A DNA stretch of 64,000 nt from Peptococcaceae bacterium. Its GTDB lineage: Bacteria; Bacillota; Desulfitobacteriia; Desulfitobacteriales; Syntrophobotulaceae. Shown one piece after another: positions 9,973 through 25,967 of this stretch. The stretch's first letter is position 1. Each line of letters opens with the position of its first letter. The position numbers and the translations under genes are program-made. The stretch lies in contig JAAYUV010000034.1 in the NCBI GenBank assembly GCA_012517475.1, forward strand, positions 1-64,000, written 5' to 3'. The notes below the pieces were generated by a model, which did not search any database, had not been told where the DNA came from, and worked only from the letters and a program-made list of their open reading frames with translations.

Positions 9973-10818
9973 GTGGCTAGTTCATGCAGCAGTTGTTCTT
10001 CAGCTTCCTCCTGTTCCGGCAGCTGTCCTTCCGTTCCGGAACTCACGGAGGCCCAAAAAATAAGTAATGTAAAAAATGTCATTGCAATCATGAGCGGCAA
10101 GGGTGGCGTTGGGAAATCCTCTGTCACCGGAATGCTTGCAGTCAGTTTAATGCGTCAGGGTTATAAAGTCGGGATCCTTGATGCAGATGTGACAGGTCCC
10201 AGTATTCCCAAAATATTTGGGATAAAGGATAAAGCCGATGCCAATGAAATCGGTATTGTGCCGGCGGTAACCCCAAAAGGCATTAAAATTATTTCCTTGA
10301 ATCTGATGATACCCAATGAGGATGATCCGGTCATTTGGAGAGGTCCGATAATTTCTCAGCTGGTTAAGCAGTTTTGGACGGATGTAATTTGGGAAGAACT
10401 GGATTATCTGCTGATCGACCTGCCGCCGGGAACCGGTGATGTTCCGATTTCTGTTTTCCAATCCATTCCCGTTGACGGGGTTGTTATTGTTTCAAGTCCT
10501 CAGCAGCTTGCCAATATGGTTGTTAGAAAAGCAATAAAAATGGCAAATATGTATGAAGCTAATTTTTATGGACTTGTTGAAAATATGGCATATGTTGAAT
10601 GTCCTGACTGTCATAAACGCATAGAGATTTTCGGCAAACCCCGTGGGGAAAAAGAAGCGGAATTTAATGAAATTCCTTTCTTAGGAGAACTGCCCATTGA
10701 TCCAAAGCTTGCAGAATTATCCGATGCCGGGAATATCGAAGAATACAGTTCTGAATATTTCGACCGGATTGCTCAAAAACTTATTGCCCGCAGTAAAGAA
10801 AAAGCTTCCAAAGAATAG
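9973..10818 (+). CDS. Mrp/NBP35-type iron-sulfur carrier ATPase
   Basis: P-loop ATPase of the Mrp/ApbC family, which holds and transfers [4Fe-4S] clusters. The deviant Walker A SGKGGVGKSS lies near residue 40 and the DLPPGTGD switch near 155. The N-terminal 20 residues are almost all Ser and Cys with CSSC pairs, the NBP35-like extension that can hold a cluster. A further CPDC pair near residue 213 is the bridging-cluster site. The start is GTG after GGAGGT at 9959-9964. Directly downstream is the MITE-like element, so any longer operon is broken here. Confidence 0.9.
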   Translation: MASSCSSCSSASSCSGSCPSVPELTEAQKISNVKNVIAIMSGKGGVGKSSVTGMLAVSLMRQGYKVGILDADVTGPSIPKIFGIKDKADANEIGIVPAVTPKGIKIISLNLMIPNEDDPVIWRGPIISQLVKQFWTDVIWEELDYLLIDLPPGTGDVPISVFQSIPVDGVVIVSSPQQLANMVVRKAIKMANMYEANFYGLVENMAYVECPDCHKRIEIFGKPRGEKEAEFNEIPFLGELPIDPKLAELSDAGNIEEYSSEYFDRIAQKLIARSKEKASKE

Positions 10819-11074: not shown

Positions 11075-11716
11075 ATGTTTACTGAGGAGGCTTTTCTTGT
11101 GACAAAGGATTGGACGAACGTAACTCGAACAATCCATACGCCGGAAGGTAATTTGTTAATTAGTGGAACTACTTCTCCGCAAACGTTGTCAATGTTGAAC
11201 ATGGATCTTCAGCTGAAATCATTTCGTCCCGCCAAAAGGCAAAAAGCCGCCCTGATGGAAATTAGCGAACTGACAGATGGCAAAGTAGTCACGGCACAGC
11301 TGAATGGGGATCTTGTCGGGTACATCACATTTCATCCCCCGGATGAATTCGAAAGATGGTCTCAAGGACCCAAAAAAGTACTGGAACTTGGAGCCATTGA
11401 AGTTTCTCCGGTCGTAAGAAAATACGGAATTGCCAGGAATATGCTTGAAGTTGCTTTCGAAGATCCTGTTATGGAAGACTATATTGTTTTGGCAACAGAG
11501 TACTATTGGCATTGGGATCTTGAAGGAACCGGAATGCATATTTGGGAATATCGTGAAATGATGCGGCGTCTCATGGAACATGTCCATTTGGTAGTTAAAG
11601 ATACTGATGACGAGGAAATTTCTTCCCATCCTGCCAACATGCTTATGGTGCGGTATGGTAAGAATGTCAGCACACCAACGATTCGAGCCTTTGAACAGTT
11701 GCTTTTTTCTGAATAA
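11075..11716 (+). CDS. acuA: AcuA-type protein acetyltransferase
   Basis: GNAT-family lysine acetyltransferase that, in Bacillus subtilis, acetylates and inactivates acetyl-CoA synthetase. Family landmarks are visible: SFRPAKRQKAALMEIS near residue 50, GYITFHPPDEFERWS near 85, ELGAIEVSPVVRKYGIARN as the acetyl-CoA-binding region near 105-125, then LATEYYWHWDL and EISSHPANMLM. Length 213 matches AcuA (about 210). Two starts are possible: ATG 11075 behind AGGAG, or GTG 11099 behind a very strong GAGGAGG; I keep the longer form because it fits the family's N-terminus better. The acuB and acuC partners are not present here. Confidence 0.9.
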   Translation: MFTEEAFLVTKDWTNVTRTIHTPEGNLLISGTTSPQTLSMLNMDLQLKSFRPAKRQKAALMEISELTDGKVVTAQLNGDLVGYITFHPPDEFERWSQGPKKVLELGAIEVSPVVRKYGIARNMLEVAFEDPVMEDYIVLATEYYWHWDLEGTGMHIWEYREMMRRLMEHVHLVVKDTDDEEISSHPANMLMVRYGKNVSTPTIRAFEQLLFSE

Positions 11717-11880
11717 AATAAAAGCGGTTTTAGGCTGATTTCAGACAAAAAAAGATTGTTTTGAAGTAAATAGAATAGTTAATTAAGCTTCTTTTTGTAT
11801 AGTATCATTATGCTAATGTTGTATGGTTCCTTTGCGGTTTGCAAAAAAAACGGAATATGTATAAAATATTGTTGAACGAT

Positions 11881-12576
11881 TAAATATGCAAACTGCATGT
11901 TTATTCAAGAACAAGTAAGTTTCTTTTGGGCTATGGAACGTTATTCTAGTGCACAAAACGGGCGTTCGAGGGCGGGCCTAAGAATCCGCTAAGGGCATAC
12001 CGATGAAGTTCCTGGTGGTGGCTTGGGACGCCCAGTCATGGGCTGCTGCTGGGAGTTAAGGACTTAGGGGGATCTGCAATGGCATGTGGGCGCTACCCTT
12101 TGTCCGTGGAGGCCCATGTTCGTGGCTTGATTTTAAGCTATGACTTGGGGATGAACCTGCATTAGGAAGGAACTTAGTGCAGTGTAGCCTGCCTTGAGGT
12201 GGGGAAGTTGGGAAGGCGTGAGATGGTAAATTGGTGTTGGCAAACACGAATTTATCTGCCAGAAATTCTTTTCTGCAAAAGAGGCTAGGACGTCCGGGAG
12301 TGTAAAGGAAAACTTCTAGAGCGTTTTTATTAAAAAGGATTGAAGTGCGGACTAAGTGGTGATCAAGTTCTGAAAGTGGCAACACTTCAGACCTGGAGGA
12401 AGGGGAAACCGCCTTAGGGGAAACCCTGGGGATCCCGGTGGGAAAACCTACTTGACCTAAGCCGCAACATTTACTTTTTAATATCCTAAGGTCCAAAAGA
12501 CTTTTACTTCCATCGTAAATCATCATGTATTTAATAGGGAAACTTTGCGAAGTAAAATCATTTGCTTCGCTTTTTT
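11881..12576 (+). ncRNA. Large structured RNA, candidate OLE-class RNA
   Basis: This 870-base gap (11717-12586) has no credible gene on the plus strand. From about 11940 it turns markedly G-rich and shows many self-complementary stems, e.g. a long hairpin around 12225-12262 closed by ggca, ctgaaagtg-gcaa-cacttcag near 12372 with a GNRA loop, aggg-gaaa-ccct near 12416, gccca-gtca-tgggc near 12030, and ctgcattag / cttagtgcag near 12158. It ends in a strong terminator at 12547-12576, giving a transcript of 600-690 bases. A 10-bp hairpin at 11881-11903 may be the 5' end. Size, ornate folding and host type (anaerobic Firmicute) fit OLE RNA, but that identity is from general recall, not alignment. 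The promoter is unclear. Confidence 0.6.
12547..12576 (+). terminator. Terminator of the large RNA
   Basis: Perfect 10-base-pair stem (gcgaagtaaa / tttgcttcgc, one G-T pair) with a 4-base loop at 12547-12570, followed by TTTTTT. It points in the plus direction, away from the convergent activator gene that ends at 12587. Confidence 0.85.
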
Positions 12577-12586
12577 ATTTTGGTCA

Positions 12587-14710
12587 TTATTTGCCTGCCA
12601 ATTCGTTCTCTTTTATATATGATAGAAACAACTCACCTTCCCTGGTGATCTTGCTCCCTTGTCTTGTCTTTCCCGCTTGGACGTAACCCATTTCTTCAAG
12701 AATCTTCAGCAATTGACGTACTTTATGATCCGCGAAATCTTCGCCGCAGTTGTGAAGTGCACGTTGAAGAGACTGTCGTCCGATGCCTTTATTGAGAAAA
12801 GAGACCTTAGAGACTTCGGTAAGGATGAAAACAACGGGTTTAAGCAGTTCCTGTTTCTGCAATTGTATCATGATTTGTTCATTGTTAGTCTCACAAATGG
12901 GGGAGATTTTTTCCCGCACAGGTCTTTTTTCCATATTCCTAATCATATAGGGTGGGATATGTCTGATCGTTGCAGTCTCATCCGGTCCAATGATGCTGCA
13001 AAGGTATTTAGCCACATTCTGCAATTCGCGAATATTTCCTGGCCAGCGGTAGTCTAAGAGAAAATTTTTCAATGGGGGCTCAAAAACCAGTTCACGGTTA
13101 TATGCTTTTTGTGTGAAATAATTGATGAGCACAAAAACGTCTTCTCCGCGGGCACTAAGGGGTGGAATTGTAATGGGCAGGGCACATAAACGATAAAATA
13201 AGTCTTCCCGGAATTTCCCCTCACTAATCAGCAACTCAAGATTCTGGTTAGTAGCAGCGATCACTCTTACATCCACCGGTGTCAGCATATTGCTTCCAAC
13301 ACGGCGTACCTTTTTTTCCTCCAAGACCCTCAAAAGTCTTTTTTGAACCTCTAATGAGGCATCGCCAATCTCATCCAAAAAAATTGTTCCCAGATGGGCT
13401 TCCTCAAACAGGCCCGCTTTTCCGCCTTTTTTTGCCCCGGTAAATGCTCCGTCATCATAGCCAAACAATTCACTCTCTACCAGATTTTGCGGTAATGCTG
13501 CAAAGTTGATGGCAACAAAAGGTCCTTCTTTTCTCTCAGAATAATTGTGTATAGCTTCAGCAAACAGTTCTTTTCCGGTTCCGCTCTCTCCTTGAAGGAG
13601 TATTGTCAGATCTGTCCTTGCAAATTTTTTAGCTTGTGTTAATGCTGAAATCAAAATGCCGGAATGACCAACAATGTGACTGAAAGTTGCTTTTGCCACA
13701 TTGCAGTTGTTTTTTAGTTCCCGCCTAACTTTGGCTTCCAAGTCTTTAACCTGGACAACCGGCCGGAAAGTCGCGACTGCGCCTTTGGCAAATCCTGATT
13801 CGTCCCGGAAAGGATTGGTACTGACAATGTAATAACTCCCGTTAATTCTCTTAATCTCGTTGGCAATTCCTTCCTCAGTATGAATGCAAGCTAAAAAATC
13901 AACCTGTGGAATCACTTCGGTTGCGTCGCGATCAAAGGCCTGAATCCAATTAATTTCCAGAAGTTTTTGCGCTACCGGATTGAAGACAATGATTTTATTC
14001 TTTTCATTAACAGCTACAATGGCCTCATCGACCGTGTTTAAAATGACTTCCATCTTGTGCTTCAATTCATTATTCTGGGCAGCCATTTTATATTGATTGA
14101 TGCTGAGGTTAAGAATCGCTTGAATATAGTAATGGGAGATTTCATTAATTAGTGTCATCGGTAGCTTAAGAAGTTGAATAAGCTGGGCGAAGGTTGAAAT
14201 ATCAATGCTCCTTGCGCCAATATCAATGACTTTCTTAATTCTGCGGGGCACGAGATAGTCTACTCCCGGCGTAATTGCACATGCAATATCCTCAGGAAGT
14301 AGTCCCCTCTGCTCCATTTCACAGCCTGGATAATACGGTATGAGATCAAGAAAGCTGAAGCCCAGTTTTTTAATAATATTAATGGTAGAAAGGGCAGCTT
14401 CTTCCCAGATCCCAACAACAATAGCTCTCGTTCCCGGGGCGAGTTCCAACAGTTTGTCAAGATGTTCGCTGTTGATGATGCGCTCAGCAACTAAATAATG
14501 TTTATGGGGAGGAAGCTGGCTCTTAACGACTTGAAGGATAGTTGAACTTGCTGCTACGTAGATATCACAGGTCGGATAAGGCAAGATGTCTTCATGCTGA
14601 AGACACCATACTTTTACCTCAATATAAGCGCCCAAGAATTTCATTAACTGTTTAGCAATAAAATTACAGGTTGATTCACTGTTTCCAATATAGCAAACAA
14701 TTTTTTTCAT
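12587..14710 (-). CDS. PrpR-type sigma-54-dependent transcription activator
   Basis: Enhancer-binding protein expected to activate the adjoining carboxylate cluster. Domains in order: a PrpR_N-like sensor (about residues 1-195), a PAS domain (about 215-320), and the AAA+ domain (about 340-575) with Walker A GESGTGKE near 370 and the sigma-54-contacting loop GAFTGA near 423, Walker B IFLDEIGD and the sensor stretch RWPGNIREL. The last 100 residues lack an obvious Fis-type helix-turn-helix. They look like a winged helix instead (HKVRQLLKILEEMGYVQA), which is unusual. It is the last gene of the minus-strand cluster, 125 bases after tctA. A matching -24/-12 promoter lies at 22416. Confidence 0.88.
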   Translation of the reverse strand: MKKIVCYIGNSESTCNFIAKQLMKFLGAYIEVKVWCLQHEDILPYPTCDIYVAASSTILQVVKSQLPPHKHYLVAERIINSEHLDKLLELAPGTRAIVVGIWEEAALSTINIIKKLGFSFLDLIPYYPGCEMEQRGLLPEDIACAITPGVDYLVPRRIKKVIDIGARSIDISTFAQLIQLLKLPMTLINEISHYYIQAILNLSINQYKMAAQNNELKHKMEVILNTVDEAIVAVNEKNKIIVFNPVAQKLLEINWIQAFDRDATEVIPQVDFLACIHTEEGIANEIKRINGSYYIVSTNPFRDESGFAKGAVATFRPVVQVKDLEAKVRRELKNNCNVAKATFSHIVGHSGILISALTQAKKFARTDLTILLQGESGTGKELFAEAIHNYSERKEGPFVAINFAALPQNLVESELFGYDDGAFTGAKKGGKAGLFEEAHLGTIFLDEIGDASLEVQKRLLRVLEEKKVRRVGSNMLTPVDVRVIAATNQNLELLISEGKFREDLFYRLCALPITIPPLSARGEDVFVLINYFTQKAYNRELVFEPPLKNFLLDYRWPGNIRELQNVAKYLCSIIGPDETATIRHIPPYMIRNMEKRPVREKISPICETNNEQIMIQLQKQELLKPVVFILTEVSKVSFLNKGIGRQSLQRALHNCGEDFADHKVRQLLKILEEMGYVQAGKTRQGSKITREGELFLSYIKENELAGK

Positions 14711-14835
14711 AATTCCCCCTCACTGTATTTCCACAAATATCCAAATGAGTTTTAGATTCTCCGCAGTCAGGAAGAAAACCTCTTTTTTTTTCGCACTTTT
14801 TCAAATACAGCAAAAAATTTCTTGTTTCATCTTAT

Positions 14836-16350
14836 TTAGGCTTCATCAGATTCCCTTTCCTTATAGGCCCCATGCTTAATGATGTGATAGACCTGGAAAG
14901 CGGTGACAATGCAGAAGATAGCAGAAAGAGTCAGGGAAATCGGGCGTTGGAAGAAAATGAGCCAGCTGCCTTCCGAAAGGGAGAGGGATTGCCGAAGAGC
15001 TTCCTCCATCATTCCTCCGAGAATTGTGCCTAAGAGGAGGGGAGGCAATGGGAAATCAAGTTTACGCATGACATAGCCCAGAACACCAAACAGCAGCATA
15101 ATCCACAGACTAAACAGACTATTGGACAGACTGTAGATTCCCAGTACCGAGAGTACGCAGATAAAGAGAGACATCACCGCATAGGGAAGGCGCAGGATTT
15201 GCATAAATAAGGATATGAGCGGCAGATTTAAGATAAGCAGCATCACATTGCCGATATACATACTGGCGATCAAGCCCCATACTACATCGGGATGGAGTTG
15301 AAATAACGTTGGTCCGGGACTGATACCGAGGAGCATAAAACCGCCGAGCAAGACTGCGGTAGAACCCCCGGCCGGAATACCAAGAGTAAGCAAAGGAATA
15401 AACCCGCCTGCCGCAGAACCGTTGTTGGATGATTCCACGGCAGCAACCGCAGGCATATGTCCGGTGCCAAATTTCTCTTTGGTTTTGGAAATAGCTTTTT
15501 CAATACCATAGGTAATAAATGTACCGATGGTTGCTCCGCCGCCAGGCAGACATCCAATCCCAAATCCGACGAGGGAACCGCGTAAGATAGGGAAAATACT
15601 TTCTTTCCAGTCAGATTTTGAAGGCAATAATTCTCTAACCTTAAATTTTTTCAATTGGGTAATAGGAATTTGCATCACTTCAAGGTTGCATAGTATTTCA
15701 GCTACTGCAAAAAGTCCGATGGCAACGACGACAAACTCGATTCCATCCATTAACCCGATAACGCCAAATGTAAACCTGGCCTCACCGGTCAAGCGGTCAA
15801 TGCCGATTGTGGAGACCATAAGACCAATCACCGTGGAAATCAGCCCTTTAATGATGTTGTTGGTAGATAAAGCGGCTACTAAGGTGAAAGAAAGGGTCAT
15901 CAATGTAAAGTATTCCGGCGGTCCGAACTTAATGGCAAGTTTGGCCATGGTAGGAGCTAAGAATCCTAACAGGACAAGTCCTACGGTGCCCGCAATGAAG
16001 GATCCGAAAGCTGCAATTCCCAGCGCGGCTCCGCCGCGCCCCTTTTTGGCCAGTTCATATCCTTCTACCGCCGTCATGACGGAAGAAGACTCACCCGGAA
16101 TATTGGCGAGTATTGAGGTGGTGGATCCGCCATACATTGCGCCATAATAAATACCTGCCAGTAAAATAAGGGCACTGGCAGGGTCCCGTCCAAAGGTGAG
16201 CGGCAAAAGAACAGCAATCCCTGTTACCGGCCCCACACCCGGCAGAACGCCAATGATTGTCCCCACCGTAACACCAATCAAAGCCCAAAGAAGGTTCATT
16301 GGAGTTAAGGCGATACTAAATCCGTAGAATAGTTGCTCTAATCCGTCCAT
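14836..16350 (-). CDS. tctA: Tripartite tricarboxylate transporter, large membrane subunit
   Basis: TctA-family permease, about 504 residues with roughly a dozen hydrophobic segments, which moves the substrate handed over by the periplasmic-type binding protein. The conserved glycine-rich signature PGVGPVTGIAVLLPLTF is near residue 38, and a second one, GCLPGGGATIGTFITYG, near 265. It starts 15 bases after tctB stops, with GAGGAGGCC ahead of the start. The substrates of this family include citrate, tartrate and other di- or tricarboxylates; here the neighbouring aconitase-like enzymes point to a citrate-like acid. Confidence 0.95.
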   Translation of the reverse strand: MDGLEQLFYGFSIALTPMNLLWALIGVTVGTIIGVLPGVGPVTGIAVLLPLTFGRDPASALILLAGIYYGAMYGGSTTSILANIPGESSSVMTAVEGYELAKKGRGGAALGIAAFGSFIAGTVGLVLLGFLAPTMAKLAIKFGPPEYFTLMTLSFTLVAALSTNNIIKGLISTVIGLMVSTIGIDRLTGEARFTFGVIGLMDGIEFVVVAIGLFAVAEILCNLEVMQIPITQLKKFKVRELLPSKSDWKESIFPILRGSLVGFGIGCLPGGGATIGTFITYGIEKAISKTKEKFGTGHMPAVAAVESSNNGSAAGGFIPLLTLGIPAGGSTAVLLGGFMLLGISPGPTLFQLHPDVVWGLIASMYIGNVMLLILNLPLISLFMQILRLPYAVMSLFICVLSVLGIYSLSNSLFSLWIMLLFGVLGYVMRKLDFPLPPLLLGTILGGMMEEALRQSLSLSEGSWLIFFQRPISLTLSAIFCIVTAFQVYHIIKHGAYKERESDEA

Positions 16351-16365
16351 TCTCTAGGCCTCCTC

Positions 16366-16866
16366 TTATCTGAAAGTTTCCATAAACATAGGCAGCGGAA
16401 TGCGTAAGGCTATTTCAAAAATAAGAAATCCTAAAACAGCCATCGCAACAGCCGGGACAAGCGTTTTTAGGAACCTGAACCCGTATAAAAGCATGAGGTA
16501 TCCAATACCAAACAGGATGGTATCAATGATAAAACCCAGGTAGGGCAGTAACACCAAATAGACGCCTAAAACAACCAGACCTTTTACAATTCTCTTTACA
16601 CGATTGGCTATAGGCTCTTGAATTTTTTCAACATCGCTTTGTACTGAGGCAGCTTCTTCCGGGGCATCCTCCAGCGATTTGCTTTTCTTGCCGGCGGTGA
16701 TAAAGAGCAGGATGGACAAAAATCCAAGGATAGTAGCAAGAAACATTGGAAAAATACCGGCGCCGATTTCATATTGTAATGCTGCGCGGGGTATCCTCCA
16801 TGCATTGACAAAAACAAAAAGCGCCAAGCAGATTAATACCACGGCTGATTTACGGTCATGGCCCAA
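16366..16866 (-). CDS. tctB: Tripartite tricarboxylate transporter, small membrane subunit
   Basis: A 166-residue protein with four predicted membrane segments (AVVLICLALFVFVNAW near the N-terminus, a second near 40-60, and two in the C-terminal half), the shape of TctB. A charged cytoplasmic loop separates the second and third segments. The start is TTG, supported by GGAGGT upstream. It lies between tctC and tctA, the usual order. Confidence 0.88.
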   Translation of the reverse strand: MGHDRKSAVVLICLALFVFVNAWRIPRAALQYEIGAGIFPMFLATILGFLSILLFITAGKKSKSLEDAPEEAASVQSDVEKIQEPIANRVKRIVKGLVVLGVYLVLLPYLGFIIDTILFGIGYLMLLYGFRFLKTLVPAVAMAVLGFLIFEIALRIPLPMFMETFR

Positions 16867-16936
16867 GCAACATGCACCTCCTTTTGCGGCAGCAGGGGGG
16901 CAGTTCTAAGAACTGCCTCCCCCCTGAAGACCAATA

Positions 16937-17902
16937 TTATTTTGCAAATGCTTTTTTGTATAATTCTGTTTTGGCGGTAATGGTTTTTTGGAATTCAGCA
17001 GAACCCTGGAAGGCTGGAATTTGCATGTTGGCAGTATATGTTTTCTTGTACTCAGGGTCTTCCAGCGCTTTTTTGATAGCATCTTCTAAAATTTTCACAA
17101 TCTCATCCGGCGTATCTTTAGGTGCGGCGATTCCGCGGAATTTATCAATAGAAAGGTCCGGATAGCCCTTTTCGGCAAAAGTAGGGATGTCTGGCGATGC
17201 CGGATTGCGCTGTGAGTTAAAGGACATAAGAATTTTTACCTGTTTGGCATCAAGCTGGGGTTTAATTTCCGCGATTTCGGCGACACTCGCCTCAACATCT
17301 CCGCCGAGTACAGCGGTCAAGGCTTTGGATCCATCTCCCATGAGAACGGAAGATATTTTGGCATTATGTTTTTTAATCAGGGTATCAATTACCGCGGTTT
17401 CGGGAGTTCCGGCCTGAGAAGCGGCCCACTTGATATTTTGTTTACCTTTAAAGATTGCTTCCAGCATAGAATCTGCAGTCCATTTACTGTCGGCACGGAC
17501 ATACAAAACATTGGGGTCAAGCACAACCCGTGCAACCGGCTTAAAAGAACTTAAATCCTTTGGAATATTATTGTTGATTGGGGTAATGATCATAGTATCG
17601 GTTATCCCAAGCAGGGTATAGCCATCGGGTTTGGACTCGGCGACATACTGCAGGGCAACTGCGCCGGAACCGCCGCTCCTGTTGTCAATTACGACGGTGT
17701 TACCTGTTGCGGTCTGAATAGCTTTCCCCAGTTGACGGGCGAAAACATCGCCGCCGCCGCCCGGTGCAGTGTGAGCGACTAAGGAAATAGCTTTATTCGG
17801 GAATTTTTCTTTGGCAGGGGCAGCCGCAGGCTGATTGGCACAACCTGCAACTAATACCAATACCAACAGAATACTGATCACAAGAGTCGAAATTTTCCTC
17901 AT
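16937..17902 (-). CDS. tctC: Tripartite tricarboxylate transporter, substrate-binding lipoprotein
   Basis: Bug/TctC-family extracytoplasmic binding protein, 321 residues. The N-terminus is a lipoprotein signal peptide ending in the lipobox VAGC (Cys near residue 20), so the mature protein is membrane-anchored, as expected in a Gram-positive. The family motif APGGGGDVFAR is near residue 47 and VIDNRSGGSGAVA near 75. It is the first gene of the transporter set, 169 bases after the unknown Cys-rich gene. The ligand cannot be told from sequence. Confidence 0.93.
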   Translation of the reverse strand: MRKISTLVISILLVLVLVAGCANQPAAAPAKEKFPNKAISLVAHTAPGGGGDVFARQLGKAIQTATGNTVVIDNRSGGSGAVALQYVAESKPDGYTLLGITDTMIITPINNNIPKDLSSFKPVARVVLDPNVLYVRADSKWTADSMLEAIFKGKQNIKWAASQAGTPETAVIDTLIKKHNAKISSVLMGDGSKALTAVLGGDVEASVAEIAEIKPQLDAKQVKILMSFNSQRNPASPDIPTFAEKGYPDLSIDKFRGIAAPKDTPDEIVKILEDAIKKALEDPEYKKTYTANMQIPAFQGSAEFQKTITAKTELYKKAFAK

Positions 17903-18071
17903 TCGTTAATCCTCCTTTTCATTTTTACCCTTACTAATTGGAAATAAGCAATAGATCTTTTTGGCTGCTGGTTATCACTCCCTCATCTATAGAATTCAGT
18001 TCAATGAAAAAAGAAAAGTTCTTATAAATTTTTAATAAATAACCCATTCAGATGGAAAACGAGCTAAACCT

Positions 18072-18707
18072 TTAGTTGGCTTCAGAAGAGCTTTTGTTTT
18101 TCTCCAATATTTCCACGCACCGCACGGGGTTAAAGATGCCGCAATAGCAGAAATTGGCCAGTTTAATCGCCCCTTCTTCGGCGGTAAGACGTCCTTTCAC
18201 GACCTGTTCCCGTACATGTTGTACAAATTTGGGAGGGATCATGTGGTGTCCGCACATCGTAGTCACAGACAAAGTCACATCATCGGGCAAATTTTCTTTC
18301 TTGCCCCATATCCCCAAGGAATAATTAATGGAATGGGGTGTTACACCGGCCTCTTTACAGGCTGGAATGACTTCTGAAAGAATCCCGGCAATCACTACCG
18401 ACATACCTGTTTCTTTTGCTTTGACCAGTTTAAGAAACTCAACAACTTGCTCGCTTTTCGTAAAGACTCCCCTCAGACGGGACTTATCCGAAAGTTTATC
18501 CTTAATTTCTTCGACACTGCAGCTGGTGATAGGCCCGGTTTTGACATCACCCCAGTTTTCAGAGCCACAGGCTTCTGCCGCAGCAATGAACTCAAGGGCC
18601 TTTGGTTTAATGTCCTTATCATTTACTCCTTTGGTCTGGTACATAAACCAGACGAAGTCTCTCTTTTGCGATTCAATTTCTCCTGACCGGTGCAGGGAAT
18701 GAGTCAT
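18072..18707 (-). CDS. Unknown Cys/His-rich cytosolic protein of carboxylate cluster
   Basis: I do not recognise a named family. The 211-residue product has no signal peptide or membrane segment. Conserved-looking Cys/His groups are spread along it: AACG, TSC, TTMCGHHMIPP, NFCYCGIFNPVRC. These could bind metal or an iron-sulfur cluster, but no standard spacing is met. The middle part (MSVVIAGILSEVIPACKEAG, then SINYSLGIWG) reads like a TIM-barrel or Rossmann-type alpha/beta core. I place the start at ATG 18707, which follows AGGAGGGATTAAT. An upstream in-frame ATG at 18731 would overlap the previous gene. Being 11 bases after the ferredoxin-domain gene suggests the two act together in catabolism of the imported acid. 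Confidence 0.7.
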   Translation of the reverse strand: MTHSLHRSGEIESQKRDFVWFMYQTKGVNDKDIKPKALEFIAAAEACGSENWGDVKTGPITSCSVEEIKDKLSDKSRLRGVFTKSEQVVEFLKLVKAKETGMSVVIAGILSEVIPACKEAGVTPHSINYSLGIWGKKENLPDDVTLSVTTMCGHHMIPPKFVQHVREQVVKGRLTAEEGAIKLANFCYCGIFNPVRCVEILEKNKSSSEAN

Positions 18708-18718
18708 ATTAATCCCTC

Positions 18719-19453
18719 CTAATCCAAGCATAGAGGACGTCCAAGTCCGACATTTACCTTGCCCCGGTGGGGCTGAGGAATGGATAGTTCATTCAGACAG
18801 TCGAGTACATTCGTCTCACCGTCTTCATTAACCCGAAGAATCAAGCCTAACGAGAAAACGGTATCGATTTCCCGCTCGACCTTTTGTAATGCTTTTAGCA
18901 CGTTGCTCAGCAGGGTTTCCGGGCATTTGGCCTCGACGATTACAGAAAGCAAGTGATAATGGAGGCATTCCTCCACTAATTCACCGGTCTTGAGGTCCTT
19001 CATTAAGGCAGCCAGAGGGGTATGCTCTGCCGATTGGAGTTCTGCACCAGCTGCGGCTAAGGCCATGGCTACTTTTGAGGCATCCCTGAGATAGACTCCC
19101 ATTCCCGGCCTGCCCATATCGATACAGATACCAACTTCACCTTTTTTGATTCTCCCTGAGACATCATTTGTTTTTACTTCTTCCGTCCCCCTGCCTGTAA
19201 CTCCGGTCACACCATGATTTTCGACCGGATCACTAATGACATGCTGGAACAGCTTATAAAAGTTATCCAACTCGACGGGTTCAATGGCTTCATGTTTGCA
19301 AACCCGTTGTCGTAGACAAACATAACACTCCGTACAGCGGTTCTGGTCTATGCGGCATTTTTTTATCGTTACATCATAAATAATCGCATCCACCGTGCAA
19401 TAGGTCTGACATGCTTTACATCCGTTACATTTTTCGGTATTAATGACACTCAT
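18719..19453 (-). CDS. Ferredoxin-like protein with unrecognised C-terminal domain
   Basis: About 244 residues. The first 60 residues hold two cluster motifs: CNGCKACQTYC (CxxCxxCxxxC), then CTECYVCLRQRVC with a longer last gap. The remaining 170 or so residues form an alpha/beta domain I cannot name (GICIDMGRPGMGVYLRDASKV near 110, VGLGRP at the end). It might transfer electrons to or from the dehydrogenase or an aconitase-like partner, but this is inference. ATG 19453 is preferred over TTG 19459 because AAGGGTGA sits six bases before it. It lies between the LeuD-like gene and the unknown Cys/His-rich gene in one operon. Confidence 0.75.
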   Translation of the reverse strand: MSVINTEKCNGCKACQTYCTVDAIIYDVTIKKCRIDQNRCTECYVCLRQRVCKHEAIEPVELDNFYKLFQHVISDPVENHGVTGVTGRGTEEVKTNDVSGRIKKGEVGICIDMGRPGMGVYLRDASKVAMALAAAGAELQSAEHTPLAALMKDLKTGELVEECLHYHLLSVIVEAKCPETLLSNVLKALQKVEREIDTVFSLGLILRVNEDGETNVLDCLNELSIPQPHRGKVNVGLGRPLCLD

Positions 19454-19490
19454 TGGCAATCACCCTTTCCTGAACTTACTATTTCCTTCT

Positions 19491-20000
19491 TTACTTACCC
19501 ATCTGGTTTTCAAGGTAGGGGATAAGTCCGCCTAACTGAATGTACTCAAGCATAAATTCCGGCGGCTTGGTAAACTCATAATTTCTGCCGAGGGCATGAT
19601 TTGTAATCACGCCTTTTTCCAGATCTACTTCCACCCGGTCTCCCTCCGAAGTCTCTTCGACCAGCTGAGGACAAATAAGCGCAGGTATCCCAATATTAAA
19701 ACAATTGCGGTAAAATATTCTGGCAAAAGACTTGGCAATGACTACCCTGATCCCGGCATATTTCAGAGCCTGAGGCGCCTGCTCGCGGCTGGAACCGTAA
19801 CCCAGGTTCTCACCGGCAGCAAAGATATCTCCAAAGCGGACCTGCGCTGCAAATTTGGGGTCACAGCCTGCCATACAGTTTGCGGCCAATTCATGAGGTT
19901 CCACTTCAGTCATAAAGCGGGAGGGCAAAATATGATCGGTACTTATGTTATCTCCAAATTTCCACAATCGCCCTGAGTAAATCAATTTGTCAGCAACCAT
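19491..20000 (-). CDS. Aconitase-like hydro-lyase, small (swivel) subunit
   Basis: LeuD/homoaconitase small-subunit family, about 170 residues. The opening GRLWKFGDNISTDHILPSRF and the YGSSREQAP substrate-binding loop near residue 70 are the family signatures. It pairs with the LeuC-like subunit directly upstream. I place the start at ATG 20000 because a GGGGG stretch lies 9 bases before it; an in-frame ATG at 20009 would overlap the preceding stop. No other leucine genes are nearby, so a role in leucine synthesis is not supported; the context favours isomerisation of an imported hydroxy-acid. Confidence 0.9.
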   Translation of the reverse strand: MVADKLIYSGRLWKFGDNISTDHILPSRFMTEVEPHELAANCMAGCDPKFAAQVRFGDIFAAGENLGYGSSREQAPQALKYAGIRVVIAKSFARIFYRNCFNIGIPALICPQLVEETSEGDRVEVDLEKGVITNHALGRNYEFTKPPEFMLEYIQLGGLIPYLENQMGK

Positions 20001-20001
20001 T

Positions 20002-21261
20002 TCATACATCCCCCAGCAAGTTTCTTGGATCGGTAATACAGCCTGTTACGGCACTGGCTGCAACTGTCAGGGCGCTGGCAAGGTAGATCTTACCTCCAAC
20101 CCCCATGCGTCCTTCCATATTGCGGGTAGTAGTGGAGATACATACCTCTCCCGGAGCAAGGCAGCCTACTTCATATCCGCCGCAGACGCCGCACGAAGGC
20201 GAACTGATGATAGCTCCCGCTTTCAACAATGTATCAATAATCCCTGACCGCACTGCCGCTGCCATAACATGTGAGGTATTGGGAACAATCACAAAACGCA
20301 CACCGGGGGCTATTTTTCTCCCTTTAAGAATCTTGGCAGCCTGCTCCAGGTCGTGATAAAAAGCACCGGAACATGAACCCAAGGCTGCCTGGTGAATCTC
20401 AGTTCCTGCGACATCCGTCACGACTCCCCCGCTGGTAGGGAGCGGGGGAGTCGCCACCATAGGCTCGAGGCTGGAGACATCAAAATGGATAACAGCCACA
20501 TATCTCGCATCCGGATCGGCAGAAATGATCTCCTCCTGGGCAGAACCTGCCCCAATTTTAGCAAGCAGCCGACTATCAACAGGCATGAGTGCATTTTTCA
20601 CACCCATCTCCAAACTCATCACTGTAATGACCATTCTTTCATCGAGAGTCAGTTTATCGATTAGGGAACCTTCAAACTCTACCGCCATATAATTAAGGAA
20701 GGAGGGCCCAAAATGCTTCAGTATCAACAGGGCTACGTCTTTAGAGCATATTCCCGGCGATAGTTTGCCATTCAGTACAATCTTAATGGTTTCCGGAACT
20801 TTCATCCATATTTTTCCTGTTGCTAAGACTGCGGCCATTTCGGTTGAACCAATTCCGGTTGCTAAGCAGCCGAATGTTCCTAAGCCAACGGTATGAGAGT
20901 CGGACCCTACAACAATGTTGCCCGGACGGGGAATCCCTTCTTCTGCCATGACAGGGTGAGAAATCCCCCTGCCGACTTCAATCAGATGACACCCATATTG
21001 TCCGGCGAAATCCCTGATATTCCGATGGTGTTGAGCAGCCCGGATCGTTGATGATGGTGAATGATGATCAAGAACAAAGTAGACCTTATCGGAATCCCAT
21101 ACTTTAGCCAGTGGCAGCTTAGAAAATTGCTGAATAGCAATTGGACCGTTATTATCGTGAATAAAGGCTACATCTACTGGAACTTCAATGATTTGGCCCG
21201 GAGTAATATCTTTTCGATTGGTTTTATACGATAGGATTTTTTCCGTTACTGTCAGGCCCAA
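20002..21261 (-). CDS. Aconitase-like hydro-lyase, large subunit (LeuC/HacA family)
   Basis: Iron-sulfur hydro-lyase of the 3-isopropylmalate/homoaconitate dehydratase type, 419 residues. Conserved pieces include DHHSPS near 65, GSDSHTVGLGTFG near 118, and the paired cluster cysteines in SPSCGVCGG near 357. The first cluster cysteine lies in GSCSGA near 295, where LeuC and HacA normally read GSCTN(G/A), and RNMEGRMG replaces the usual RNFxGRxG. These changes sit around the active site and suggest a different substrate from isopropylmalate. The start is TTG after AGGGGGA. It is 20 bases behind the dehydrogenase gene and next to the small subunit. Confidence 0.9.
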   Translation of the reverse strand: MGLTVTEKILSYKTNRKDITPGQIIEVPVDVAFIHDNNGPIAIQQFSKLPLAKVWDSDKVYFVLDHHSPSSTIRAAQHHRNIRDFAGQYGCHLIEVGRGISHPVMAEEGIPRPGNIVVGSDSHTVGLGTFGCLATGIGSTEMAAVLATGKIWMKVPETIKIVLNGKLSPGICSKDVALLILKHFGPSFLNYMAVEFEGSLIDKLTLDERMVITVMSLEMGVKNALMPVDSRLLAKIGAGSAQEEIISADPDARYVAVIHFDVSSLEPMVATPPLPTSGGVVTDVAGTEIHQAALGSCSGAFYHDLEQAAKILKGRKIAPGVRFVIVPNTSHVMAAAVRSGIIDTLLKAGAIISSPSCGVCGGYEVGCLAPGEVCISTTTRNMEGRMGVGGKIYLASALTVAASAVTGCITDPRNLLGDV

Positions 21262-21281
21262 GTTATAATCCCCCTGTCCAA

Positions 21282-22367
21282 TTACTGCAGCTTTTGAATT
21301 GTTTCACAGATCGATGCACCCATTTGTTCAGTAGAAGCGTCTCCTCCTAAATCCGGCGTTACCAGTTGTAAATCATCCAGTACTTTGTCTATGGCGAGTT
21401 CAATATCGCGCGCAGCTTGAATCGCCCCCTGATCTTGTTTTTTGTTTCCGAGCCAGGAAAGCATCATTTGTGCCGACATGATCATGGCATATGGATTAGC
21501 GATATGCTTACCGGCAATATCCGGAGCGGACCCGTGGGTAGCCTGGGCCATGACGTATTTATTACCTACGCAAAGACCCGGGGCCATTCCTAATCCTCCG
21601 ACAAGTCCGGCCGCTTCATCTGTTAAAATATCGCCGAACATATTTGTCGTTACTACAACGTCAAACTTTTGCGGCCGCATCACCAGATTCATGGCAAAGG
21701 TGTCTACGACCATTGTGTCAAAGGTTATGTCCGGATACTCTTTGGCAACTTCCCTGCATGTATCTACAAATAGACCGCAGCTCATTTTCCAGACAGTATT
21801 TTTATGAATGGCCGTCACTCTTCGGAGCTTATTGCGCTGCTGTGCAACTTCCATCGCCGTCCTGGCTACCATTTCGGAGTTCCGTCTGGTGATTACTCGC
21901 GCAGAGAGAGCCATATCCGGAGTTGGCATAAACTCGCCGACTCCTTTGTACATATTCCGGTCCGGCTGAAATCCTTCATTATTTTCCCTGATAATCACGA
22001 CATCAACATTCTTATGTAAGCTTGGCAGGTTGCAATAAGACTTTGTCGGTCGAACATTGCTGACCAGATCGAATTGCCGGCGCAATATAGGATGAGGGTT
22101 AACGGCTTTGGGATCGTCTTTGGGGTAATTCATATGTCCAATAGGGCCGAGAATCCAGCCGTCCAGCTCATACAAAGTATCCAATGTGATTTGGGGCAAC
22201 GTTTCGCCCGTTTGCTGGTAAGAAACATATCCCACCGGCAGCGGAACCCAGTCTATTTGCACATCCTGATACCTTTTTACTGCACATTGCAGGACGTCAA
22301 CAGCAACGGGAACAATCTCCAAACCAATATCATCTCCGTTTAGAATTCCAATTTTGTATTTGGCCAT
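21282..22367 (-). CDS. Beta-decarboxylating dehydrogenase (isocitrate/isopropylmalate family)
   Basis: NAD(P)-dependent oxidative decarboxylase of a 2-hydroxy-3-carboxy acid, 361 residues. Family features: the GDDIGLEIVP opening, the arginine-bearing LRRQFDL and NVRPTK strands near 95-107, the catalytic lysine region HKNTVWK near 190, and the metal-binding TNMFGDILTDEAAG near 240. After ENNEGF, where relatives usually have the catalytic Tyr, this protein reads Gln, although a Tyr occurs six residues later; this may shift the chemistry. It is the first gene of the cluster, directly behind a sigma-54 promoter. Isocitrate, homoisocitrate, methylisocitrate or a tartrate-like acid are all possible substrates. 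Confidence 0.88.
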   Translation of the reverse strand: MAKYKIGILNGDDIGLEIVPVAVDVLQCAVKRYQDVQIDWVPLPVGYVSYQQTGETLPQITLDTLYELDGWILGPIGHMNYPKDDPKAVNPHPILRRQFDLVSNVRPTKSYCNLPSLHKNVDVVIIRENNEGFQPDRNMYKGVGEFMPTPDMALSARVITRRNSEMVARTAMEVAQQRNKLRRVTAIHKNTVWKMSCGLFVDTCREVAKEYPDITFDTMVVDTFAMNLVMRPQKFDVVVTTNMFGDILTDEAAGLVGGLGMAPGLCVGNKYVMAQATHGSAPDIAGKHIANPYAMIMSAQMMLSWLGNKKQDQGAIQAARDIELAIDKVLDDLQLVTPDLGGDASTEQMGASICETIQKLQ

Positions 22368-22715: not shown

Positions 22716-23159
22716 TTACTTCTTCTCATCCGCATTGTCTGTTAATGAAGAAGCATAGATGGCGTTATCGCCATTGCTGGTTTCTTCATAGGAGCTTGTG
22801 CCGATAAAGCGTGCGCCTTGATCGATTTTTAGCTGTCTGGTATTGATATCACCATACAGACGGGCAGTTGAGCTTAATTCCAGCAAATCTTTAGCCTTAA
22901 CGTTGCCGCGGACTTCTCCTGCAATACTAATTGTCTGCGCCTCGATATTGGCTTTTAGTATCGCGGATTGGCCGATGAACAAATCGCCGCTTACATTAAT
23001 TGTGCCTTCGATATTGCCGTCTATTCTGGCATTGCCCTTGGAAACAAAAGAACCTTTGACCTCACAGTCTTCAGCGAGATAGGTAACATTGGAGTTGGTA
23101 CTGACGATTCTGGTTACGGGTTTAACCTCAGCTTCTTTTTTACCAAACATCTTTTTCAC
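22716..23159 (-). CDS. Bactofilin family cytoskeletal protein
   Basis: A 147-residue bactofilin (DUF583). The core from about residue 25 to 120 is a run of short beta-helix turns (VKGSFVSKGNARIDGNIEGTI and so on), with unstructured ends, typical of these polymer-forming proteins that organise envelope processes. It overlaps the upstream M23 peptidase gene by 4 bases, an arrangement often seen because bactofilins localise or control such peptidases. Confidence 0.92.
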   Translation of the reverse strand: MKKMFGKKEAEVKPVTRIVSTNSNVTYLAEDCEVKGSFVSKGNARIDGNIEGTINVSGDLFIGQSAILKANIEAQTISIAGEVRGNVKAKDLLELSSTARLYGDINTRQLKIDQGARFIGTSSYEETSNGDNAIYASSLTDNADEKK

Positions 23160-24052
23160 TGCTCCTTAGTTAAAGTTGTAAAAATTAACGGATCCACTAA
23201 TTCACCATTCACATAGGCAGAATAGTGAGAGTGGCTGCCGGTACTTCTTCCGGAATTGCCGCTATAGGCAACAACTTGACCTTTTTTAACCTGATCTCCG
23301 ACGTTTACAACCAGCTTGGAGTTATGGGCATAAAACGTGACGACTCCAAAACCATGATTAATCTGTACTTTTCTTCCCCAATAACCGTCCCAGCCCGCAA
23401 ATGTAACGATCCCGTCAGCGACGGCCATCACGGGAGTGCCAACAGGGCAGGCGATGTCAATTCCGGTATGGAATTCACTTGTCCATCTGCCAAAAGGATT
23501 TCTTCTGTACCCAAAGTCGGAAGAGATAGGACCATTGACCGGCAGAATGCTTGGAGTATGGTTTACTTTGTCTTCTTGCTTAACGGTAACATCGTAATAT
23601 TCTTCAAATTTTTGCTTTTGATTTTCCAATAGAGCAGAGGCTTGATCCAAACTGGCAGGTTCGGAATAGGACTGAAGTGAAAAATTCCCGCGGCTTGGTT
23701 CAGTTTCGCTGGTTTCCTGGTCTATTTTTAAAATGCTGGCGATTTTCTTTTCCATGGAAGCAATTGCCAGGAGATTATCATTAATCTCGGCGGATTTTTC
23801 ATTAAGACGGGCTATTTCTAAATTTTTGGCCTGCAATTCCAGTTCCAGCTGATCGACATAAGCAATTTTTTGTTGGTAACTTTTTATGTAGTACGACTGG
23901 TAAATATCATGAATGCACATGCCGGAAAATAATAACCCAAAAGCGGCTGAACTGATTACGATGATTTTTTTTGCTTTTATAGAAAATTGAATTTGATTCG
24001 GTGCTTTTTCATGTTCAGGGGGAATGATGATAATCGAATATTTATTTTTCAA
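23156..24052 (-). CDS. Membrane-anchored M23 family metallopeptidase
   Basis: A 298-residue envelope peptidase expected to cut peptidoglycan cross-bridges. One membrane segment (IIVISSAAFGLLFSGMCI) is near residues 30-48, followed by a coiled coil to about 100 and a C-terminal LytM/M23 domain (about 175-290). Zinc ligands are seen as HTGIDIACPVG (H and D) and the H-x-H of GSHSHYSAY, where most relatives read GPHLHxE. It is translationally coupled to bactofilin. Confidence 0.92.
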   Translation of the reverse strand: MKNKYSIIIIPPEHEKAPNQIQFSIKAKKIIVISSAAFGLLFSGMCIHDIYQSYYIKSYQQKIAYVDQLELELQAKNLEIARLNEKSAEINDNLLAIASMEKKIASILKIDQETSETEPSRGNFSLQSYSEPASLDQASALLENQKQKFEEYYDVTVKQEDKVNHTPSILPVNGPISSDFGYRRNPFGRWTSEFHTGIDIACPVGTPVMAVADGIVTFAGWDGYWGRKVQINHGFGVVTFYAHNSKLVVNVGDQVKKGQVVAYSGNSGRSTGSHSHYSAYVNGELVDPLIFTTLTKEQ

Positions 24053-24203
24053 GCTATCACTCCTGAAAAGATAGTAAAAAGAGACAAAAAAAGATAAGAT
24101 ACTTTTTCAAAGGAAATTTAATTACAATAAACCCATTTTTAGGATATACACCTTTCGTCCTATTGTCAATAACAAGAATTGACAGAAATACCGACAATAT
24201 ATA

Positions 24204-25967
24204 CTAAGAATCTTCATTATGAAAGAATTTATAGACTTCTTGGGCAATTGGCAATGTCAGCCCGGAGTTTTTTAATTCTTCTACCGAAGCACTTTTTATT
24301 CCCTCTATGGAAAGAAATGTGCGGAAAAGCTGTCTTTTACGCTTGGGGCCGATTCCGGGGATTCCATCCAGTTCAGAAGAGGTCATTTTTTTTATTCTCT
24401 GCTGTCTATGGAAAGTGATCGCGAAGCGGTGGACTTCGTCTTGAATTCGCTGGATAAAATGAAAGACTTCCGGAACTGAACCGAGGGATATTTCCTTACC
24501 TGTGCTGTCAATCAAACTTCGCGTTTCATGGCGGTCGTCTTTCACCATTCCGGCTACAGGGATACTTTCACCGAGTTCCCGTAAGACGGAAAGAGCCGCC
24601 TTAACCTGTCCTTTGCCGCCGTCTACCAGGATCAGGTCCGGGAGTTGGGCGCCTTCCTTTATTAACCGGGAATATCTGCGGAAAACAACATGTTTAAGAT
24701 ATGCAGTATCGTCGTTATTATTCGTCAGGGGCAGGATATTGTATTTTCTGTAGTTGGAGCGGCAGGGTTTCCCATCAACAAACTGAATCATCCCGCCAAC
24801 AACATTCGTTCCCGATAATCCGGAAATATCAAAAGCTTCAATCACATTTGCTTCGGGAATTCTTAGGACTTTCGTAAGGCTGTCTAAAGTCCTATTCAGT
24901 TCCTCGCTTTTTACATTTTCCAGATTAATTTTTTCTTCCAAAACAGTTTTGGCATTGGATTCGGCCAGACCAATTAATTCACGGGTTTTTCCCCGTTTGG
25001 GAACAACAAGGGGATACAGGTCCATCACAGAAGTTTCGGAGATTTCGGAGACACAGATTTCATCCGGCAGAGCCGCAGTATTCGAATAATATTGAACAAG
25101 AAAAGAAATAAAAGCCTCTTCCGGTTCCGAGTAATATGGAAAAATAAAGCCATCGCGCGTAATGAGGTTTCCCTGACGGAAACAGAAGACCTGGATGCTG
25201 ATCAGCTCCTCATTAGCAAAATATGCAGCAATATCGCGGTTCTTAAAGTCATTGAGAGTAATGTTCTGTTTTTCACTGACTTTTTGCAGATCGTTTATTA
25301 AATCGCGGTATTCCCGAGCCGCTTCAAACTGTAATGAGGCGGCGGCTTCCCGCATTTTCTCCGCTAACCAGCCGATAATACTTTTTTGGTTGCCCCGTAA
25401 AAACAAGCTCGCTTTTTCCAAAACTTCTTTATAGGCATCAGGGGAAACTTCCTGAATACAAGGTCCGAGACACTGACCAAGATGAAAATAAAGGCAAGGC
25501 TTGGCAGGGATCTGATTACACTTGCGGAAAGGGAAAAGCCGGTTAAGCAGCCGTGAAGTTTCCCTTGCGGCTGTTGCATTCGGATAAGGCCCGAAGAATT
25601 TGCCGGCTTTTTTATTTATCTTTCTGGTTACCAGGATCCGGGGGTGTTTTTCGGATGTAATCAGGATATAGGGGTAAGTTTTATCATCCCTCAGCATAAT
25701 GTTGTAATGCGGGTTGTATTTTTTAATCAGGTTGCATTCCAGCAATAGGGCTTCAACCTCGGATGCTGTCAGGATATATTCAAAATCATAAATTTCACTG
25801 ACCAGTTTTTGGGTTTTTTGATCATGCGAACCGGTAAAATAGGAACGGACCCGGTTTTTCAGAATTTTAGCCTTCCCAACGTAGATAATTGTGCCTGCCG
25901 CATTTTTCATCATATAAACACCGGGCTTGTCCGGTAATAATTGCAGCTTCTTTTTGAGCAGATCCAT
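24204..25967 (-). CDS. uvrC: Excinuclease ABC subunit C
   Basis: Nucleotide excision repair nuclease that makes the incisions in the UvrB-DNA complex. The 587 residues begin with the GIY-YIG domain (PGVYMMKNAAG, then IIYVGKAK at about 15-35), followed by a UVR motif near 200-235 for UvrB contact, the C-terminal RNase H-like nuclease (FDISGLSGTNVVGGMIQFVDG near 385) and tandem helix-hairpin-helix (LDGIPGIGPKRKRQL near 540). Complete and of normal length. It is divergent from the gene at 26070. Confidence 0.97.
   Translation of the reverse strand: MDLLKKKLQLLPDKPGVYMMKNAAGTIIYVGKAKILKNRVRSYFTGSHDQKTQKLVSEIYDFEYILTASEVEALLLECNLIKKYNPHYNIMLRDDKTYPYILITSEKHPRILVTRKINKKAGKFFGPYPNATAARETSRLLNRLFPFRKCNQIPAKPCLYFHLGQCLGPCIQEVSPDAYKEVLEKASLFLRGNQKSIIGWLAEKMREAAASLQFEAAREYRDLINDLQKVSEKQNITLNDFKNRDIAAYFANEELISIQVFCFRQGNLITRDGFIFPYYSEPEEAFISFLVQYYSNTAALPDEICVSEISETSVMDLYPLVVPKRGKTRELIGLAESNAKTVLEEKINLENVKSEELNRTLDSLTKVLRIPEANVIEAFDISGLSGTNVVGGMIQFVDGKPCRSNYRKYNILPLTNNNDDTAYLKHVVFRRYSRLIKEGAQLPDLILVDGGKGQVKAALSVLRELGESIPVAGMVKDDRHETRSLIDSTGKEISLGSVPEVFHFIQRIQDEVHRFAITFHRQQRIKKMTSSELDGIPGIGPKRKRQLFRTFLSIEGIKSASVEELKNSGLTLPIAQEVYKFFHNEDS

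Follow-up and report, generated by a model that had tools for sequence, protein, structure and literature searches.

We identified a full-length OLE RNA (RF01071) at positions 11917–12504 on the plus strand of the window, the 64,000-nt stretch of DNA analyzed here. Few conserved bacterial RNAs of unknown biochemical function reach the size of OLE. We read the present case as a variant of this known RNA class, in which a stand-alone, relocated ole gene supplies the RNA for a ribonucleoprotein (RNP) complex of OLE, OapA acting in trans and OapC, without OapB, and we put the probability of this whole reading at roughly 80%. With somewhat less confidence, we consider it probable that OapB-free OLE RNPs with ole unlinked from oapA are a feature of two large families, and that GYGA versus GNAA at the P13 tip is a signature of OapB across Bacillota.

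Identity and extent of the OLE RNA

When the whole window was searched against every Rfam family, OLE RNA was the sole match (433.1 bits, E = 7.8e-124; curated cut-off, 50 bits), covering model positions 1–616 over 588 nt with only small gaps. The RNA is present as a single copy in the window's genome, and the same search of 14 control genomes returned no matches. Of the 159 base pairs in the Rfam model, 137 are canonical in the window's sequence, 12 are non-canonical and 10 are gapped, so that 137/149 ungapped pairs are canonical. The predicted 702-nt transcript folds at −251 kcal/mol, compared to a mean of −208 kcal/mol for shuffled sequences (z = −10). GNRA loops are found at P12.2 (GCAA, 12379–12382) and P13 (GAAA, 12420–12423).

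A sequence-only reading of this DNA had proposed a structured plus-strand RNA with GNRA-type loops at 11881–12576 and had named OLE as a possible identity. Both proposals held up, and the covariance-model search that it had suggested yielded the significant full-length match described above. Its span does contain the structured RNA; the RNA proper begins at about 11917, within a predicted transcript whose ends lie near 11875 and 12577.

To this match we can add covariation among 31 OLE sequences drawn from two families of the order, the window's own (f1) and another (f2). In this set, paired cells make up 89.3% of the total. Both-side changes occur at 60 pairs (at most 48 after shuffling; 17–26 for slid controls) and in 376 cells (at most 158 after shuffling; 50–86 for slid controls). 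There is no conserved plus-strand reading frame, the median longest stop-to-stop stretch being 60 codons among the 31 relatives, in agreement with the earlier impression that no coherent plus-strand ORF is present. A 156-aa minus-strand ORF (12056–12526) was rejected as a gene, as frameshifts and stop codons interrupt it in those relatives that we inspected. The sequence-only reading had held that a lack of match and covariation, or a conserved frame, would speak against OLE, and on each point the result favors OLE. The full-length covariance-model match and the covariation together establish that 11917–12504 is a genuine full-length OLE RNA. There is thus next to no chance that the region encodes a different structured RNA, or is protein-coding sequence mistaken for one, since this is already contradicted by a full-length match at E = 8e-124 with no hits among the controls, by the covariation and by the absence of a conserved frame. 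The host side of the OLE definition agrees: the RNA is about 600 nt long without a conserved frame, is flanked by a predicted promoter and terminator, and belongs to a member of the Bacillota.

The predicted promoter is sigma-70-like (TTGCAA-17-TAAAAT, 11839–11867, plus strand), with a start expected near 11875, and a TTTTGCAAA...TAAAAT-like sequence also lies upstream of ole in the f1 members G001, G003, G008, G017 and G021. The terminator noticed earlier is present as a sequence feature, an intrinsic terminator at 12547–12576 (plus strand) with a 10-pair stem, a 4-nt loop and T6; terminator-like hairpins follow ole in many relatives, with differing sequences. These features suggest that ole is transcribed as a stand-alone gene from its own predicted promoter to its own terminator. 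A possible conserved 5′-leader hairpin between promoter and OLE start, hinted at by the window and G001, was discarded when RNAalifold across the family gave 0.0 kcal/mol.

Relocation of ole away from oapA

The ole gene is found in tandem with oapA "almost always" (PMC9723947), an arrangement that is typical of the class and not defining. This tandem order is not found in the window's genome (G000), where the two genes lie on separate contigs. Both oapA and the isoprenoid/recN block are absent from the window, confirming the remark in the sequence-only reading that the RNA lies outside its usual neighborhood, and the search for oapA elsewhere that it had proposed located one intact gene on another contig (G000:C104:9172–9756). 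As query we used the OapA of a third family of the order (f3, represented by G026 and G028), which has the classical tandem ole-oapA locus, and the two proteins are 42% identical. In the window's genome, oapA sits in the block xseA-xseB-ispA-DUF212-oapA-dxs-tlyA-nadK-argR-recN. The ispA-DUF212-oapA-dxs-recN genes are common to this block and the f3 locus; in f3, ole exactly fills the interval between DUF212 and oapA, whereas in G000 this interval is a 26-nt gap without ole. The same ole-less block was found in G001 (same genus), G002, G006, G008, G025 and G031.

The two families f1 and f2, which together comprise Dichloromethanomonas, Desulfosporosinus and relatives, have a new ole site, with CYTH-pepF-mrp-SAHH and/or GNAT upstream and bactofilin/M23 or NlpC/P60 followed by uvrC downstream. 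The upstream side is present in the window without SAHH, the kept neighbors being genes for an Mrp-family ATPase (9973–10818, plus strand) and a GNAT acetyltransferase (11075–11716, plus strand). The usual downstream neighbors, bactofilin, M23 peptidase and uvrC (22716–25967, minus strand), are parted from ole by a cluster of about 10 kb (12587–22367, minus strand) that is not part of the RNA gene; in G001 nothing comes between ole and the bactofilin and M23 genes. We note that this cluster appears catabolic, encoding a sigma-54 activator, a TctABC transporter, aconitase halves and a member of the isocitrate/isopropylmalate dehydrogenase family. No plasmid records matched the region. As the vacated block and the new site are common to f1 and f2, the simplest reading of these neighborhoods is one relocation of ole in their common ancestor.

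To place this arrangement in the phylum, we used an even set of 150 genomes, in which OLE was detected in 111 and OapA in 112. All 111 OLE carriers encode OapA, and the one additional OapA genome is 78% complete. Coordinate comparison places ole upstream of oapA, at a distance of no more than about 0.5 kb, in 106/111 carriers, the five non-tandem carriers being three from this order (G000, G025 and G027), G071 and G111. Among relatives, OLE and OapA occur together in 33/34 OLE carriers. Three genomes (G009, G010 and G173) have OapA but no detectable OLE; these are draft assemblies, possibly with gaps.

Likewise, ole is missing from the oapA blocks in G071 and G111. In G111, ole (L128:9740–10318) lies 800 kb from the oapA block (L129), and OapB is kept. 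As G064, a family mate of G111, has tandem ole-oapA, relocation has occurred more than once. In G071, ole (L126:7886–8482) lies beside genes that by eye resemble phage head/scaffold genes, the oapA block is on L127 and OapB is absent; this looks like an independent relocation. In the open full-text literature, we found no paper joining OLE RNA with Desulfitobacterium or Desulfosporosinus.

Loss of OapB and the P13 tip

Of the three essential protein partners of OLE, OapC/YbxF (L7Ae family) is encoded in the window's genome (L055:4627–4878) between rpoC and rpsL. OapB, reported to be essential in the OLE system of Halalkalibacterium halodurans, follows a different course. In G028 its gene lies between map and infA, and the product resembles the H. 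halodurans OapB of known structure (7k9b, E = 7.7e-9). The KOW domain model (PF00467) was rejected as a detector, as it misses this real OapB, and its silence in the window's genome was not counted; dedicated OapB profiles were therefore built from the G028 protein. With an 11-sequence profile, OapB was found in 0/38 f1/f2 genomes, including the window's and several single-contig assemblies, while profile searches recovered it in 41/44 OLE carriers elsewhere in the phylum. Further, map adjoins infA in the window's genome and related genomes, with no ORF between. Profile search and synteny thus show the loss of OapB from the f1/f2 clade, where a very divergent or non-orthologous protein could have taken its place. 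OapB is also absent from G026, G071, G093, G150 and the eight RF39-like genomes searched, the last in agreement with PMC11332333.

The published OapB-binding region is P12.2/P13 (PMC9723947, PMC12054373). In the window, model alignment places the P12.2 hairpin at 12370–12390 (plus strand); the P13 arm follows at 12391–12439 (plus strand), with the tip GGAAAC at 12419–12424. We compared this tip among OLE RNAs L001–L030, L086–L115, L126–L141 and L142–L181. It reads GGYGAC in 34/37 OapB-bearing genomes, GGAAAC in 30/31 f1/f2 genomes and G150, and GGUAAC in G026, G071, G093 and RF39-like sequences, so that the loop is GNAA in six OapB-less lineages. With each of these lineages counted once, the association of A at the third loop position with OapB loss gives a Fisher p = 1.4e-5, a value that is somewhat too favorable, since the genomes with OapB are related and not fully independent. 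Contrasts within families agree (G026 versus G028; G093 versus G135 and G172). There are exceptions: G061, G117 and G176 have OapB with A in the loop, and G048 has GUGA without OapB. These comparisons suggest that, exceptions aside, the base at the third loop position of P13 goes with the presence of the OapB gene across Bacillota: G where OapB is encoded and A where it is not. Elements flanking P13 are also clade-specific. The motif GGGAAAACCTACTTGACCTAAG, just after P13, was considered as a marker of the order and dropped, since it also occurs in RF39-like MAGs and a Paenibacillus.

The proposed complex and its relation to known OLE systems

We propose that ole left the DUF212-oapA site in the common ancestor of the two families and settled downstream of mrp-SAHH-GNAT. 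OLE would most likely still be the scaffold of a membrane-bound RNP that contributes to stress tolerance. OapA, made in trans from its original locus, would anchor the RNA to the membrane, and OapC/YbxF would bind its k-turn, both interactions being drawn from H. halodurans, as are the suggested assembly, location and stress role of the complex as a whole. Given the loss of OapB and the change of the P13 tip from GYGA to plain GAAA, we infer that the complex assembles without OapB, the P13 arm either folding by itself or docking to RNA in its place.

The RNA could also have altered assembly or function, as L9.3 and other positions that are fixed elsewhere have changed. In the cryo-EM structure of the C. 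acetobutylicum OLE dimer, the L9.3 GGCC palindrome forms a kissing loop that bridges the two copies (PMC12286853); the window instead has GGCA (12239–12242, plus strand), as do 12/13 f1 members, the window included, and this bridge has probably been lost in the family. Altogether, 17 positions that are otherwise at least 85% conserved differ in f1 and f2. Set against the same dimer, most positions of the 5′ domain that are conserved elsewhere are kept (30/31 in consensus 81–120), as are 24/25 in consensus 161–200; by our own mapping from the published description, these two stretches would hold the OapC k-turn strands.

Such changes raise the question of whether ole, transcribed or not, is a decaying relic that lost its function after relocation. 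Several otherwise fixed nucleotides differ, the covariance-model scores (388–436 bits) fall below those of most tandem-ole genomes (mostly 440–560 bits), and elsewhere in these families ole and oapA have been lost as a pair. A relic is expected to decay, however, and what we observe is strong compensatory covariation, 88–94% identity to f1 relatives, a promoter and terminator that have been kept, and oapA retained almost wherever ole is. We regard a relic as very improbable.

A less remote alternative, though still an unlikely one, accepts a functional RNA and holds that some other protein, perhaps of the KOW or ribosomal type, now stands in for OapB and recognizes the GAAA tip of P13 as its signal. 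GAAA is nearly fixed in f1 and f2 (30/31), as expected under selection and not drift, and the clade-specific elements around P13 point the same way. In the window's genome, however, the KOW model (PF00467) detects only two proteins, identified by position and sequence as ribosomal protein L24 and NusG, and a stable GNRA loop docking on RNA would explain the conservation without any protein. We favor the complex of OLE, OapA and OapC.

A clade in which OapB is gone while the RNA and OapA persist (as does OapC, in the window's genome) would distinguish the core of this machine from an accessory component. The parallel change in the P13 loop, in turn, makes a testable prediction of a contact. With ole unlinked, nature also provides a form of the gene whose deletion or transfer would leave oapA and its important neighbors intact.

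Compared to the H. halodurans system of OLE with OapA, OapB and OapC (PMC9723947, PMC12054373, PMC11332333), the RNA family is common over its full length, the oapA and ybxF/oapC genes are present in both, and the OapC k-turn region is highly conserved. The differences are that ole here lies away from oapA with its own predicted promoter and terminator, that the OapB gene is absent and that the P13 tip is GAAA, whereas the OapB-bearing genomes sampled mostly have GYGA. CNNM/MpfA-type transporters have been reported to anticorrelate with OLE (PMC11332333). We found no CNNM/CorC-type (MpfA) protein in G000 and G001, unlike in most relatives, and the mean number per genome is 1.74 in OLE-less relatives versus 0.82 otherwise; these counts fit the published anticorrelation.

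OLE variants 1 (TANB77) and 2 (RF39), described by Fernando and Breaker in 2024, also largely lack OapB (PMC11332333), and the RF39-like RNAs sampled here have an A-type P13 loop (GUAA) too. Those variants, however, occur in reduced genomes mostly without OapC, and their RNAs are shortened in P7–P9 or lack P7/P8 (PMC11332333). The RNA described here is near full length and comes from genomes of about 2–6 Mb, and the window's genome retains OapC. With the variants compared by description, the alignment of all 588 nt over the full Rfam model with small gaps only argues against a P7–P9 shortening of the window's OLE RNA.
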